A DNA stretch of 64,000 nt from assembly GCA_947495125.1 (NCBI GenBank), contig CANLXL010000013.1, positions 62,001-126,000 on the forward strand. Direction: 5' to 3'. The notes beneath the pieces are model-generated. The model was not told the DNA's origin. It saw only the letters and a program-made list of their open reading frames with translations, and did no database searches. Each line of letters begins with the position of its first letter. The first letter of the stretch is position 1. Below are positions 16,216 through 38,107 of this stretch, piece after piece. Source of the DNA: an uncultured Flaviramulus sp. (GTDB taxonomy: Bacteria; Bacteroidota; Bacteroidia; Flavobacteriales; Flavobacteriaceae). Made by a program: the position numbers and the translations under genes.

Positions 16216-16246
16216 TACCTCAGTTCATAAATGTAATAATATTGTT

Positions 16247-16380
16247 ATCAAGAAAGGCAGAGGGATTAGACCCTATGAAGCCTTGGCAACCCTTTACCCT
16301 ATAAAGAAGGTGCTAAATTCTACTAATATTCTGATGATATTAGAAAGATAACGAAAAGTACTTCTTTTGCTTTTCTTGAT
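16247..16380 (+). ncRNA. SAM-I (S-box) riboswitch
   Basis: S-adenosylmethionine-sensing leader RNA before the methionine operon. The closing helix P1 is a perfect 9-bp pairing of ATCAAGAAA (16247-16255) with TTTCTTGAT (16372-16380). Inside are the S-box landmarks GAGGGA, CCCTATGAAGCCTTGGCAACC (the kink-turn and GCAACC core), AAGGTGCTAAATTC and GAAAGATAACG, in canonical order. The first gene starts 26 nt downstream. No clear T-tract terminator follows, so control may act on translation initiation or on an unusual terminator. High SAM is expected to switch the operon off. Confidence 0.93.
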
Positions 16381-33784: not shown

Positions 33785-33814
33785 TTTGATTTCTTAAAAT
33801 ATTAATTACTTTAG
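33785..33814 (+). promoter_or_regulatory. Promoter of the aromatic amino acid operon leader
   Basis: TTTG (33785-33788) and TACTTTAG (33807-33814) with an 18-nt spacer, one mismatch from the Bacteroidota consensus. The spacing equals that of the cys operon promoter. Transcription should start near 33820, only a few nucleotides before the leader-peptide ATG at 33825. Confidence 0.6.
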
Positions 33815-33824
33815 CCGCGTAATT

Positions 33825-33908
33825 ATGACAACAACAATGCGTTATACATATTTTAACAACTGGTTTTATTTCTTTTTTAGCAAAAGGAACGAGACGTTGT
33901 ATGTATAA
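33825..33908 (+). CDS. Aromatic-rich leader peptide (transcription attenuation)
   Basis: A 27-residue open frame ending in TAA. Ten of its residues are aromatic (four Tyr, five Phe, one Trp), and nine of these fall within residues 7-18: YTYFNNWFYFFF. It lies between a promoter and an intrinsic terminator, upstream of pheA, and has the form of pheL/trpL-type leader peptides. Stalling at Tyr/Phe/Trp codons when the charged tRNA is scarce would change folding of the RNA behind it. An in-frame second ATG at 33837 gives a 23-residue version. It is too short for normal gene finding and is supported by composition, position and the RNA structures around it. Confidence 0.8.
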   Translation: MTTTMRYTYFNNWFYFFFSKRNETLYV

Positions 33909-33961
33909 TTTATAAACAATAAATTTAAATATAAGTCTCGATGAAAATCGGGACTTTTTTT
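33842..33961 (+). promoter_or_regulatory. Attenuator: alternative RNA structures before pheA
   Basis: Segment 1, TTATACATA (33842-33850, within the Tyr codons), pairs perfectly with segment 2, TATGTATAA (33900-33908, end of the leader frame). Part of the region between them, CGAGAC (33890-33895), pairs perfectly with GTCTCG (33935-33940), the 5' arm of the terminator. Formation of that antiterminator would destroy the terminator. Stalling in the aromatic block should favour antitermination, and completed translation should favour termination. The pairings are seen in sequence; the switching is inference by analogy with phe/trp attenuators. Confidence 0.7.
33933..33961 (+). terminator. Intrinsic terminator inside the aromatic operon leader
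   Basis: Stem AAGTCTCGAT (33933-33942) with ATCGGGACTT (33947-33956), loop GAAA, one G-U pair, followed by a run of T to 33961. It lies about 65 nt before the pheA start, with no gene end before it on this strand, which marks it as a regulatory terminator. Confidence 0.88.
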
Positions 33962-34024
33962 GTTCAACTAATAATCAAACAAACCTAAAGACAAACTAAG
34001 GGTTTAAAATATAAAATTAAAGTT

Positions 34025-34852
34025 TTGACTAGAACAGTAGCTATACAGGGAGCAAAGGGCTCAAATCATCATAAGGTTGCTCGCGATTTTTATGGTAATG
34101 ATATTATATTGAAAGAATGTTTGTCTTTTGATGTTTTGGTTGATAGCTTGTTGGATAAATCGTCAAGTCAGGCAATAATGGCTTTAGAGAATACCATTGC
34201 CGGTTCTATTATACCTAATTACGCTCTAATTGATAAGAATAACCTGCATATTTGCGGAGAGCGTTATTTAAGTATTCATCATCATTTAATGGCTTTGTCC
34301 AATCAAAAGATAGAAGATATTAAAGAAGTATGTTCTCACCCCATGGCCTTATTGCAATGTAAAGAATTCTTTAAGAAGTACCCGCATATTAAATTGGTTG
34401 AAGATGTTGATACGGCTGAAGTCGCCAAAAGAATAGCCAAAGAACAGTTAAAAGGCGTAGCAGCCATTGCACCAAAAATGGCGGCAGAGATTTTCGGATT
34501 GAACGTTATAGAAGACGAAATACAGACGATAAAGGATAATGCAACGCGTTTCGTGATCATTCAAACTGAAAAACCTAATAACGGCATTGATGAAATAAAT
34601 AAGGCCTCCTTGAAGTTTGAGACCGATCATAAGCGAGGGAGTTTGGCAACAATACTTAATGTGATGAGTGATTGTAAACTTAATTTAACCAAAATCCAGT
34701 CGTTACCAATTATTGAAACACCTTGGAAATATGCCTTTTTTGTTGATGTGACCTTCGAAGCGTATTCAGATTTTAAAAAGGCCAAATCTATTATAGATAT
34801 TATGGGGCAAGGCTTAAAAATATTAGGAGAATATAAAAATGCAAAATTATGA
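34025..34852 (+). CDS. pheA: Prephenate dehydratase
   Basis: Converts prephenate to phenylpyruvate in phenylalanine synthesis, 275 residues. The prephenate dehydratase domain comes first (AIQGAKGSNHHKVA; catalytic-type NATRFVII near residue 178), then a C-terminal ACT domain (about 195-275, RGSLATILNVMSDCKLNLTKIQS) for phenylalanine feedback. There is no fused chorismate mutase; that activity is on the DAHP synthase at the end of this operon. The start is a TTG at 34025: no in-frame ATG lies between the upstream stop and the conserved N-terminus. It overlaps the aminotransferase gene by 4 bp (ATGA). Confidence 0.94.
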   Translation: MTRTVAIQGAKGSNHHKVARDFYGNDIILKECLSFDVLVDSLLDKSSSQAIMALENTIAGSIIPNYALIDKNNLHICGERYLSIHHHLMALSNQKIEDIKEVCSHPMALLQCKEFFKKYPHIKLVEDVDTAEVAKRIAKEQLKGVAAIAPKMAAEIFGLNVIEDEIQTIKDNATRFVIIQTEKPNNGIDEINKASLKFETDHKRGSLATILNVMSDCKLNLTKIQSLPIIETPWKYAFFVDVTFEAYSDFKKAKSIIDIMGQGLKILGEYKNAKL

Positions 34853-35994
34853 TTGAAGTAGCAGATCGATTGCATACCGTTGAGGAATATTACTTTTCTA
34901 AAAAATTAAGAGAGGTTAATTTGCTTATTGCCAGTGGTAAACCGATTATTAATTTAGGGATTGGTAGCCCGGATCTACAGCCACCGCAAAAAGTAGTTGA
35001 GGCTCTAACTAAGGGATTATTAAATCCGGGAGCTCATAAGTATCAAAGTTATCAAGGTCTCCCCGAATTAAGAGAGGCTATTGCTGCTTTTTACAGGTTG
35101 CATTTCACAGTCAATTTAAGTCCCAATACGGAGGTTTTACCACTTATGGGGAGTAAAGAAGGCATCATGCATATTTCTATGGCTTATTTAAATGAAGGTG
35201 ATGAGGTGCTCATTCCAAACCCGGGTTATCCTACTTATCAATCGGTTACGAAATTGGTGGGAGCTAAACCCGTATTTTATGAGTTAGATGAAGTAAATAA
35301 TTGGTTGCCAAATTTAAAAGCTTTAGAGAATTCAGATTTAAGTAAAGTAAAACTTATGTGGGTCAATTATCCACATATGCCAACAGGAGCACAGCCAACG
35401 GAACAGTTGTTTGAAGATTTAGTTGCCTTTGCTCAACGTCAGAATATCTTAATCATAAACGACAATCCATACAGTTTTATACTTAACGATTCCCCTAAAA
35501 GCATATTAAGCGTAGACGGCGCTAAAGAGGTGTGTTTAGAGCTTAATTCTTTAAGTAAAACCTTTAATATGGCTGGCTGGCGCGTAGGCATGGTCGTAGG
35601 TGATAATGCACATATAAACAACGTGTTAAAAGTAAAAAGTAATATGGACTCAGGCATGTTTTATGGGATTCAAAAAGGAGCTATCGAAGCCTTAAGATGT
35701 TCAGAAATGTGGTATAGTACTTTAAATAGTGTATATCAGCAACGACGTCATTTAGTTTGGCAATTAGCAGATGCTTTAAACTGTACCTATGATAAAAATG
35801 CTACGGGTCTTTTTGTTTGGGCTAAATTACCAGCTTATGTTAAATCTGAAGAGTTTATAGATTTAATTCTTAAAGAGAATCATCTATTCATAACCCCGGG
35901 AACCATTTTTGGTAGCCAGGGAGAGGGTTACATTAGGTTTTCCTTATGTGCTTCGAATGATGTTTTAGAAGAAGCAATTACAAGAGTTAATTAA
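34849..35994 (+). CDS. Class I/II pyridoxal-phosphate aminotransferase (aromatic operon)
   Basis: Aminotransferase of 381 residues, fold type I. Seen are NLGIGSPDLQPP near residue 36, NPGYPTYQS near 124, the NYPHMPTGA region near 173 and the PLP lysine in NSLSKTFNMAGWRVG near 230. Lying between pheA and tyrA with a 4-bp overlap, it most likely transfers the amino group onto phenylpyruvate and 4-hydroxyphenylpyruvate to finish Phe and Tyr. Some relatives are annotated as aspartate or diaminopimelate aminotransferases, so specificity is by context. Confidence 0.88.
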   Translation: MIEVADRLHTVEEYYFSKKLREVNLLIASGKPIINLGIGSPDLQPPQKVVEALTKGLLNPGAHKYQSYQGLPELREAIAAFYRLHFTVNLSPNTEVLPLMGSKEGIMHISMAYLNEGDEVLIPNPGYPTYQSVTKLVGAKPVFYELDEVNNWLPNLKALENSDLSKVKLMWVNYPHMPTGAQPTEQLFEDLVAFAQRQNILIINDNPYSFILNDSPKSILSVDGAKEVCLELNSLSKTFNMAGWRVGMVVGDNAHINNVLKVKSNMDSGMFYGIQKGAIEALRCSEMWYSTLNSVYQQRRHLVWQLADALNCTYDKNATGLFVWAKLPAYVKSEEFIDLILKENHLFITPGTIFGSQGEGYIRFSLCASNDVLEEAITRVN

Positions 35995-36058: not shown

Positions 36059-36081
36059 GTGTTTTGAAATTACAGATGGAA

Positions 36082-36933
36082 ATGAAAAATATATATATCA
36101 TAGGTGTTGGTTTAATAGGAGGTAGCTTGGCTATGGATATCAAAAGGAAGAATCCTGAAGTGGTCATTCATGGTATTAGCAGAAAAGAATCTACACTCGA
36201 TAAAGCCTTATCATTAGATTTAATTGATAAAAAAGCCACTTTAGACGATGTTGTTCATGCCGATTTGGTTATTGTGGCCATTCCTGTTGACGCTACTGTG
36301 AAACTGTTGCCTGGCATCTTAGATAAAATATCAGATAATGGCTTGGTCGTAGATGCGGGGTCAACCAAAGTAGATATTTGCAAAGCTGTTGAAAATCACC
36401 CTAAACGTAGAAATTTTTTAGCGATGCATCCTATTGCCGGAACGGAATACTCCGGTCCGAGCGCTGCAATAAATGACCTTTTTGTAGGTAAAACAAATAT
36501 TGTTTGCGAGGTGGAAAAGACCACGTTTAAACTTCAGGAAAAGGCTTTGAAACTCTTTTCAGAGATAGGAATGCGTATGCGTTATATGAACCCTGAAGCC
36601 CATGATAAACATATTGCCTATATGTCGCACTTATCACATATAAGTTCTTTTATGCTTGGGAAAACGGTTATTGAAAAAGAAAAGAACGAGCGGGATATTT
36701 TTGATATGGCGGGCAGTGGGTTTGCTTCCACGGTTAGACTTGCAAAAAGTTCTCCGGAAATGTGGACGCCTATTTTTAAACAAAATAAAGAGAATGTCAT
36801 TGAAACCTTAGAAGAGTATATTATTAACCTTACCCATTTTAAGGACATGATGAAACAGGACAATTTTGAGGGCATTTTTAACGAAATGAAAGATACAAAT
36901 CATATAAAAGATATTTTAAACGGAATAAATTAA
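36082..36933 (+). CDS. tyrA: Prephenate dehydrogenase
   Basis: NAD(P)-dependent oxidative decarboxylation of prephenate to 4-hydroxyphenylpyruvate for tyrosine, 283 residues. The Rossmann motif IIGVGLIGGS is at the N-terminus; VDAGSTKVDIC near residue 95, HPIAGTEYSGP near 115 and HDKHIAYMSHLSH near 175 carry the catalytic histidine region. I start at the ATG at 36082, directly before the Rossmann strand; ATG 36076 or TTG 36064 are possible. There is no ACT domain, so control is probably at the leader and the DAHP synthase level. Confidence 0.93.
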   Translation: MKNIYIIGVGLIGGSLAMDIKRKNPEVVIHGISRKESTLDKALSLDLIDKKATLDDVVHADLVIVAIPVDATVKLLPGILDKISDNGLVVDAGSTKVDICKAVENHPKRRNFLAMHPIAGTEYSGPSAAINDLFVGKTNIVCEVEKTTFKLQEKALKLFSEIGMRMRYMNPEAHDKHIAYMSHLSHISSFMLGKTVIEKEKNERDIFDMAGSGFASTVRLAKSSPEMWTPIFKQNKENVIETLEEYIINLTHFKDMMKQDNFEGIFNEMKDTNHIKDILNGIN

Positions 36934-37024
36934 AAACAAATCCCAAAAAAAATCTACAATTCCAATAATAAGACAAACACAAGGTTTGGGATTTGGAGTT
37001 CGATTTTTGAAATTTATTAACATT

Positions 37025-38107
37025 ATGGAAAACAAGAAAGAAATGAGAACGTGGTTAGATGACTTAAATCTAAGTCATCCATTAGTAATCGCAGGGCCTT
37101 GCAGTGCTGAAACAGAAGAGCAGGTTTTAAAAATAGCGCATGAGCTAAAAGATACTGATGTAAATTACTATAGAGCCGGTATTTGGAAACCAAGAACACG
37201 TCCGGGGATGTTCGAAGGTGTAGGGGCTTTAGGTTTAAAATGGCTGCAAAAAGTGAAGGAGGAAACCGGAATGAAAACCTGTACGGAAGTTGCAAACTCA
37301 GCACATGTAAAATTAGCTTTAGAACACGATGTGGATTTATTGTGGATTGGTGCACGTTCAACAGTAAGTCCTTTTATTATGCAAGAAATTGCAGATGCCT
37401 TACAAGGGACAGATAAAACCGTATTGGTGAAAAATCCGGTAAATCCAGATTTAGCCCTATGGTTAGGTGGTATTGAAAGATTGTATACTGCTGGTGTAAA
37501 AAATTTAGGAGCAATTCACAGAGGGTTTTCAACATACGAAAAATCGAAATACCGCAATATTCCAGAATGGCAATTAGCTATTGAATTTCAAAATAAATTT
37601 CCAGATTTACCATTAATAAACGACCCTTCGCATATTACAGGTAAAAGAGATATGATTTTTGAAGTATCTCAAGAGGCACTAGATTTAAATTTTGATGGGT
37701 TAATGATTGAAACACATCATGACCCTGAAAATGCTTGGAGCGATGCTGCGCAACAAGTAACACCAAAAGCATTAATTCAGATGATGATCGATCTTAAAAT
37801 AAGAAAGACAACGGATAAAGAAGCAGATTATATGAATGCCTTAAGTAATTTAAGAGCACAAATTGATATAGTCGATAATCAAATTATTGAACTGCTTGGA
37901 AAACGCATGAAAGCGGCTGATGGTATTGGAGAGCTAAAAAAGAGCAAAAATGTAGCCGTATTACAGTCTAAACGCTGGAATGAGATTTTAGGTAAAATGG
38001 TGTTAGAAGGAGATTCTAAAGGATTAAGCGAAGAATTTGTTTTAAAAATGTTTAAAGCCATTCATCAGGAGTCGATTAATCATCAAGAAAAGATAATTAA
38101 CGGATAA
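37025..38107 (+). CDS. Bifunctional DAHP synthase / chorismate mutase (type II)
   Basis: First step of the shikimate pathway fused to chorismate mutase, 360 residues. The N-terminal part (about 1-260) is a KdsA-like type I-beta DAHP synthase with IAGPCSAETEEQ, RAGIWKPRTRPG, WIGARSTVSPF and NDPSHITGKRD. The C-terminal ~85 residues are an AroQ-type helical chorismate mutase (LRAQIDIVDNQIIELLGKRM). Together with pheA and tyrA, the operon therefore covers DAHP formation and chorismate to Phe/Tyr. The mutase domain often also acts as the feedback sensor for such fusions. The ATG at 37025 is used; a TTG at 36986 is unlikely. A strong terminator follows 6 bp after the stop. Confidence 0.94.
   Translation: MENKKEMRTWLDDLNLSHPLVIAGPCSAETEEQVLKIAHELKDTDVNYYRAGIWKPRTRPGMFEGVGALGLKWLQKVKEETGMKTCTEVANSAHVKLALEHDVDLLWIGARSTVSPFIMQEIADALQGTDKTVLVKNPVNPDLALWLGGIERLYTAGVKNLGAIHRGFSTYEKSKYRNIPEWQLAIEFQNKFPDLPLINDPSHITGKRDMIFEVSQEALDLNFDGLMIETHHDPENAWSDAAQQVTPKALIQMMIDLKIRKTTDKEADYMNALSNLRAQIDIVDNQIIELLGKRMKAADGIGELKKSKNVAVLQSKRWNEILGKMVLEGDSKGLSEEFVLKMFKAIHQESINHQEKIING

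Follow-up and report, generated by a model that had tools for sequence, protein, structure and literature searches.

A predicted ribosome-mediated attenuator ahead of a pheA-aminotransferase-tyrA-DAHP synthase operon and its occurrence among related genomes

Organization of the pheA leader and operon

The analysed stretch of 64,000 nt (the window) is part of contig 13 of a 5.36-Mb genome and carries on its plus strand four aromatic amino acid biosynthesis genes preceded by a short leader ORF, several complementary segments and a terminator. The features are as follows.

33785-33814, + strand, promoter, presumably of the Bacteroidota type, read from the sequence as TTTG (33785-33788), an 18-nt spacer and TACTTTAG (33807-33814)
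33825-33908, + strand, leader ORF MTTTMRYTYFNNWFYFFFSKRNETLYV, 27 codons with a TAA stop (33906-33908), sequence read directly
33842-33850, + strand, segment 1, 5' arm of the protector (1:2) hairpin, TTATACATA, perfect 9-bp complement of 33900-33908
33843-33878, + strand, aromatic codon block Y-T-Y-F-N-N-W-F-Y-F-F-F (putative stall zone), 9/12 codons aromatic
33890-33895, + strand, segment 2 core CGAGAC, candidate antiterminator strand within the final leader codons, assessed by own-versus-swapped tests
33900-33908, + strand, 3' arm of the protector hairpin, TATGTATAA, overlapping the leader stop codon; comparative support weak
33933-33942, + strand, segment 3, terminator 5' arm, of which 33935-33940 is complementary to segment 2
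33947-33961, + strand, segment 4, terminator 3' arm (to 33956) and T-run (33955-33961)
34025-34852, + strand, pheA, prephenate dehydratase with an ACT-like end and a TTG start (Pfam PF00800, E 1.7e-53)
34849-35994, + strand, class I/II aminotransferase (Pfam PF00155, E 2.4e-60), overlapping the end of pheA
36064-36933, + strand, tyrA, prephenate dehydrogenase (Pfam PF02153 and PF20463; NF006307 above cut-off), start codon uncertain
36986-38107, + strand, DAHP synthase fused to chorismate mutase (Pfam PF00793 and PF01817), start codon uncertain

The leader ORF contains 10 aromatic codons, nine of which fall within codons 7-18, and the density of the block, nine aromatic codons in 12, was not matched by any of 5000 dinucleotide-shuffled versions of the upstream 300 nt. 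Segment 2 and GTCTCG at 33935-33940 are perfect 6-bp complements, and the terminator stem at 33933-33956 comprises 10 bp, including one G-U and four G-C pairs, followed by the T-run. A terminator scan of 601 bp on both strands found one terminator versus 0.1 expected in shuffles, and the fold of 33819-33970 reached -30.8 kcal/mol (z -3.4), with one of 200 shuffles equally good. A chance origin of the element was ruled out by the terminator scan, the aromatic-density shuffles and the comparative permutations described below. The coordinates, leader ORF, 9-bp and 6-bp pairings and 10-bp terminator given in a preliminary description of this DNA proved exact to the base, and the order of parts that it claimed ahead of the four genes was borne out by direct reading.

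Within the operon, the ACT match of PheA scores 19.4 bits, below the Pfam cut-off of 27, and none of the 25 NCBIfam models shown for the aminotransferase reaches its cut-off. The TTG start of pheA, already pointed out in the preliminary description, fits the comparison with relatives, several of which share TTG at this position; others have ATG (plus-strand loci).

Promoter, translation start and aromatic codons

The promoter assignment relies on what we take to be the Bacteroidota promoter consensus; a sigma-70 promoter scan, which does not cover promoters of this type, returned no site at 33785-33814. Of 166 distinct upstream sequences, 118 carry the motif TANNTTWG no more than 40 nt ahead of the leader ATG, versus 29 of 1660 control stretches inside pheA, and the commonest promoter spacing among the upstream sequences of relatives is 18 nt, as in the window. 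The leader ATG of the window lies 10 nt past the second promoter box, in agreement with its earlier placement close to the predicted transcript start, and the leader ORF would have to begin only a few nucleotides from that start. Among leaders with a recognised box, the gap between box and ATG is 12 nt or less in 33/120 and 13-25 nt in 79/120. Among 171 distinct ATG leaders, A stands at position -3 in 70%, and just five contain a Shine-Dalgarno-like 4-mer.

Across 144 distinct blocks, which were selected for aromatic content and thereby biased in favour of TTY over TTR in frame, the in-frame TTY:TTR ratio was 733:2, versus 315:77 and 362:276 out of frame; about a fifth of the block codons are non-aromatic, yet TTR occurs only twice in total. 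A U-rich RNA tract alone would not give such an in-frame bias. Both this bias and the presence of a leader at 186 of the 218 loci examined (see below) indicate that aromatic codons are retained in relatives, a point that the preliminary description had put forward for checking. Phe and Tyr codons occur together in 185 of the 186 leaders and Trp codons in 93. The Trp position varies within the window's type: 20 of its 31 leaders have TGG, seven have Phe, three Asn and one Leu, so that Trp is the optional member.

In alignment A2 (31 leaders), the block codons at 33867-33878 (TAT TTC TTT TTT) are nearly invariant at the nucleotide level, with one synonymous change; FFF formed part of the selection of these leaders, and codon choice did not. 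The same codons pair in the fold with downstream AAAAGGAA.

Joint change of the antiterminator and terminator

The two arms of the putative antiterminator change together across genomes, as seen in CGAGAC/GTCTCG, CGGGACT/AGTCCCG, AGCGGGA/TCCCGCT, CCGGGAT/ATCCCGG, AAGGCT/AGCCTT and AGAGCGGTC/GACCGCTTT. In the first run, which covered 51 of 55 leaders (four had no terminator under its stricter rule), the pairing of segment 2 with its own segment 3 scored 18.0 versus 14.6 for swapped partners; in 170 distinct leaders the values were 17.8 and 13.5, and in neither run were any of 10000 permutations as high. Because relatives share arms, branch-disjoint pairs were also used. Among 22 such pairs differing in the terminator core, picked by motif and placed on all branches of a FastTree PheA tree, supported or not, own pairing exceeded swapped pairing in 17, tied in four and lost in one (sign p 1.4e-4), in line with the compensatory changes in relatives that the preliminary description had proposed to look for. 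Under a simpler scheme, arms were classed by motif (169 rows, of which 13 fell in no class; 28 changes on the tree), and the matching segment 2 was present in 104/112, 56/64 and 76/86 decided rows, with 6, 42 and 2 rows undecided. Restricted to supported branches, this scheme left independent pairs numbering 5, 3 and 3 and was not significant (median p 0.25, 1 and 1), a comparison of low power.

In alignment A3, made with MAFFT from 27 of the 57 leaders belonging to the two main types, only 71.6% of antiterminator cells are paired, and sliding it by -1 gives an equal count. Between the two leader types the rows are shifted by one base at the antiterminator, and pairing was therefore scored per genome against swaps. 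In the same alignment, 13 antiterminator cells have changed on both sides, above all 500 shuffles, and the 7-bp core of the terminator helix is paired in 98.9% of cells (27 sequences).

In the window, folding of the protector hairpin is good. In the 31 leaders of the window's type, among which the window, the source of the structure, is itself counted, 87.3% of the hairpin cells are paired. Of 500 shuffles of these leaders, 33 reach the observed pairing and 36 the covariation score, and RNAalifold applied across the two main leader types, in an alignment of imperfect register, returned no pair before the terminator. The 9-bp pairing of the preliminary description stands as a perfect complement in the window; its covariation is not clearly above shuffles and it finds no counterpart across types, making it the weakest piece of the element. 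It may act just as a pause or buffer in the window's subgroup.

The positions of the parts were also compared with the footprint sizes of the ribosome. Between the last aromatic codon and the start of the pairing core lies a median of 10 nt (quartiles 9-11). The core stops a median of 11 nt short of the end of the leader stop codon, and the terminator starts a median of 25 nt after the stop. The core lies wholly within -20 to +14 of the end of the stop in 116 of 170 leaders, and in 158 of 170 it ends less than 18 nt before that point, or later.

Distribution among relatives

A total of 218 pheA loci were collected, with some genomes represented twice and the window's own locus included twice (L001 = L150). 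A PheA search of 98 relatives yielded 68 with PheA, and the upstream DNA of all 68 was taken; named loci were the best 80 of 588 confirmed PheA matches; and a search across 247 genomes of the phylum, with 215 matches, supplied the best 30 loci and 40 further ones. The 40 extra loci together with four of the best 30 represent 26 of the 27 matches in the window's class outside its order (G283, a weak match, was omitted), and the 40 also include one genome of the family and 17 of about 158 matches in other classes, a non-random set in which four were picked for outstanding PheA scores.

With a leader defined by at least seven aromatic residues in 12 codons, an aromatic leader ORF is present at 186 of the 218 loci, namely 55/68 relatives, 78/80 named loci (best 80 of 588), 27/30 and 26/40; shuffled upstream stretches reach this threshold in 0.5-3.1% of cases, depending on the sample. 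A terminator accepted by the search lies downstream of 181 of the 186 leaders. In the window's class, which we take to be Bacteroidia, leaders occur in 22 of 26 genomes outside the window's order, and in other classes they occur in 4 of 17 genomes, these being the four chosen for strong PheA. All 24 loci titled Flavobacterium among the named loci (best 80 of 588) have the leader, F. psychrophilum itself being absent from these 80. The closest named relative by PheA among the matches listed is an uncultured Flaviramulus (87% identity), in a collection that may omit records of the window's own genome or very near ones. By this distribution, the predicted attenuator is of old origin and common across one large bacterial class.

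The 32 loci in which the leader is absent by threshold include an early-ending contig (L027), weak PheA homologues of about 29% identity (L065-L068), near misses with five (L040 and L041) or six (L191) aromatic codons, and apparent true absences such as L029, L037, L080, L132 and L175-L177.

Four loci from other classes (L202, L203, L204 and L205, in genomes G228, G110, G162 and G250) have an aromatic leader and a terminator. In a quick tree, their PheA sequences group with the window's class, at four places in the best tree, of which at least two are forced by well-supported branches; the start of the operon was probably transferred together with its attenuator. The PheA sequences of L175, L176 and L177, from class genomes of another family and order, group with the window's order (moderate support, 81-93); these loci have no aromatic leader, possibly reflecting transfer without the attenuator or its subsequent loss. 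At L029, which has no leader, near-identical short ORFs (VKRSFY.FEERNK.N) lie upstream of pheA, a repeat that may have replaced the leader.

Proposed mechanism and alternatives

The element is very probably a classical ribosome-mediated transcription attenuator. This logic, already advanced in the preliminary description, is supported at the level of sequence by the parts and their order, the in-frame conservation of aromatic codons, the terminator, the compensatory changes of the antiterminator arms and the ribosome-scale spacing. From these we infer leader translation, termination, readthrough, the sensing of charged tRNA and the relative weight of the three amino acids. The leader ORF would be translated as soon as it is made. 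When charged Phe or Tyr tRNA (or Trp tRNA, where the codon is present) is short, the ribosome would stall in the aromatic block and leave segment 2 free, or nearly so at the last codon of the block, allowing it to pair with segment 3 at 33935-33940 and the polymerase to continue into pheA, the aminotransferase gene, tyrA and the DAHP synthase gene. When supply is plentiful, the ribosome would run to the stop codon at 33906-33908 and cover segment 2, so that segment 3 would pair with segment 4 and transcription would end near 33961.

A very unlikely alternative is nascent-peptide arrest, for which TnaC is the model, with a free aromatic amino acid bound by the leader peptide inside the ribosomal tunnel and the arrest, in place of a shortage of charged tRNA, setting the RNA fold. 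In favour of this, close relatives do share the leader peptide (e.g. YFFFS..ETLYV); however, what is kept more widely is aromatic content and not one peptide, since MKQICTFGLFYYFGFYYGDQSGRVCI, MSNNRFYFSNSFYFFFRK and MTKQYFWNGFYFYFFFKRGTGLL all stand before the same gene, and the conserved ETL codons coincide with the pairing core of the RNA, whose sequence varies in step with the terminator arm. The good fold and the terminator at its end would also suit an RNA leader that binds a ligand or protein (a riboswitch or an antitermination protein) and contains the ORF only incidentally. This is highly improbable in view of the confinement of the TTY bias to one reading frame, the lack of any Rfam family at gathering score within the element and the failure of RNAalifold to find a pair before the terminator shared by the two leader types.

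The chance that the leader mainly supplies ribosomes to pheA by reinitiation, as an 'antenna' with the terminator secondary, is close to negligible. In some relatives (e.g. L009, L014 and L023) the terminator ends about 10 nt from pheA or nearer, as such a role would favour, but in the window the leader stop lies 116 nt from pheA with the terminator in between, and the aromatic codons and the antiterminator would be left without purpose. The antenna idea is itself proposed for short distances in the passage of PMC4833913 that introduces it.

Building on the attenuator reading, a wider proposal, to which we give an even chance, is that the window's class ancestrally possessed a pan-aromatic (Phe, Tyr, often Trp) attenuator, gating the entry enzyme and the enzymes of the two branches, and that this attenuator has travelled with pheA to other classes as a portable control module. 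As part of this proposal, the nearly leaderless RNA without a Shine-Dalgarno sequence would demand tight coupling of ribosome and polymerase.

Comparison with known systems

The enterobacterial pheA attenuator (pheL; RF01859 Phe_leader) likewise places a leader ORF rich in codons for the product and an antiterminator/terminator before pheA. In contrast to pheL, the leaders described here would read codons for Tyr and Phe and, in many cases, Trp; tyrA and DAHP synthase belong to the operon, few leaders (5/171) have a Shine-Dalgarno-like sequence and the promoter is of the putative Bacteroidota type. The attenuators of the trp (RF00513 Trp_leader) and his operons share the logic with other codons, and multi-amino-acid leaders such as that of ilvGMEDA also read several related amino acids with one leader, through branched-chain codons there and aromatic codons here. 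Membership of RF01859 and RF00513 was rejected, with scores of 18.7 bits versus a gathering score of 55 and 18.4 bits versus 41, respectively.

The preliminary description knew of no described example in this lineage, a statement contradicted by a section of PMC9723704 (2021), which reports clues to leader-peptide attenuation before amino-acid operons in Flavobacterium psychrophilum and a structured 5' element of pheA that has no Rfam hit and recurs in other genera of the Flavobacteriaceae. That element shares the gene, the family and a structured nature with the one in the window, and the section gives for it no peptide, no pairing and no spread beyond the family. We infer that the two elements are the same, and the switch had probably already been glimpsed in this related fish pathogen. 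According to the introduction of the same paper, Bacteroidota promoters and translation starts differ from those of most other bacteria, and a passage of PMC7366714 describes short ORFs in Bacteroides thetaiotaomicron reminiscent of attenuation leaders. In the portions of the literature covered by the search, the element was described nowhere besides PMC9723704; the background passages of PMC4833913, PMC8305728 and PMC7819879 hold nothing on it, and PMC2965389 contains no word starting with Bacteroid, Flavobact, Cytophag or pheA. Relative to the PMC9723704 section, the present analysis adds the identity of the switch, the codon-level and compensatory evidence and the class-wide spread.

The predicted mechanism is a textbook one; what sets it apart is the class-wide spread, the apparent three-way aromatic sensing of a combined operon, the lack of a Shine-Dalgarno sequence and the probable transfer between classes with pheA. 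A comparative survey of attenuation, reportedly published by Lopatovskaya et al. in 2010, may cover the phylum. For Bacteroidota, the element offers a conserved and testable read-out of how ribosome and polymerase are coupled, with named codons and pairings that can be mutated and a named stop site, and documents, with phylogenetic control included, a classical attenuator retained ahead of pheA in much of one class. It would merit an Rfam family of its own.

Other regulatory leaders in the genome

Three further amino-acid genes of the same genome are preceded by leader ORFs followed by terminator-like hairpins: MTFIQAHHHHFYICSQAK with HHHH before hisG (L219, G000:C4), MKTILNNTWWWCFRNLCS with WWW before trpE (L220, G000:C7) and MKKQILNIVSIIVIVIISQR with an Ile/Val run before ilvD (L222, G000:C8). 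Simple pairing gave antiterminators of seven pairs for hisG and five pairs for ilvD, and for the trpE leader no convincing one (score 11). These His, Trp and Ile/Val leaders appear to follow a matching logic, a parallel that speaks for the attenuator reading of the pheA leader. No clear leader was found in this genome at a second Anth_synt_I_N match, two homoserine dehydrogenase genes or leuA; at the homoserine dehydrogenase genes and leuA, the search returned a single weak ORF containing Thr/Ile, which lies on contig 11. The window itself also contains a SAM riboswitch (RF00162, 92.7 bits) at 16242-16354, located before ORFs 16407 and 17717, which we take from their translations to be homocysteine methyltransferase-like and MetH-like, respectively.
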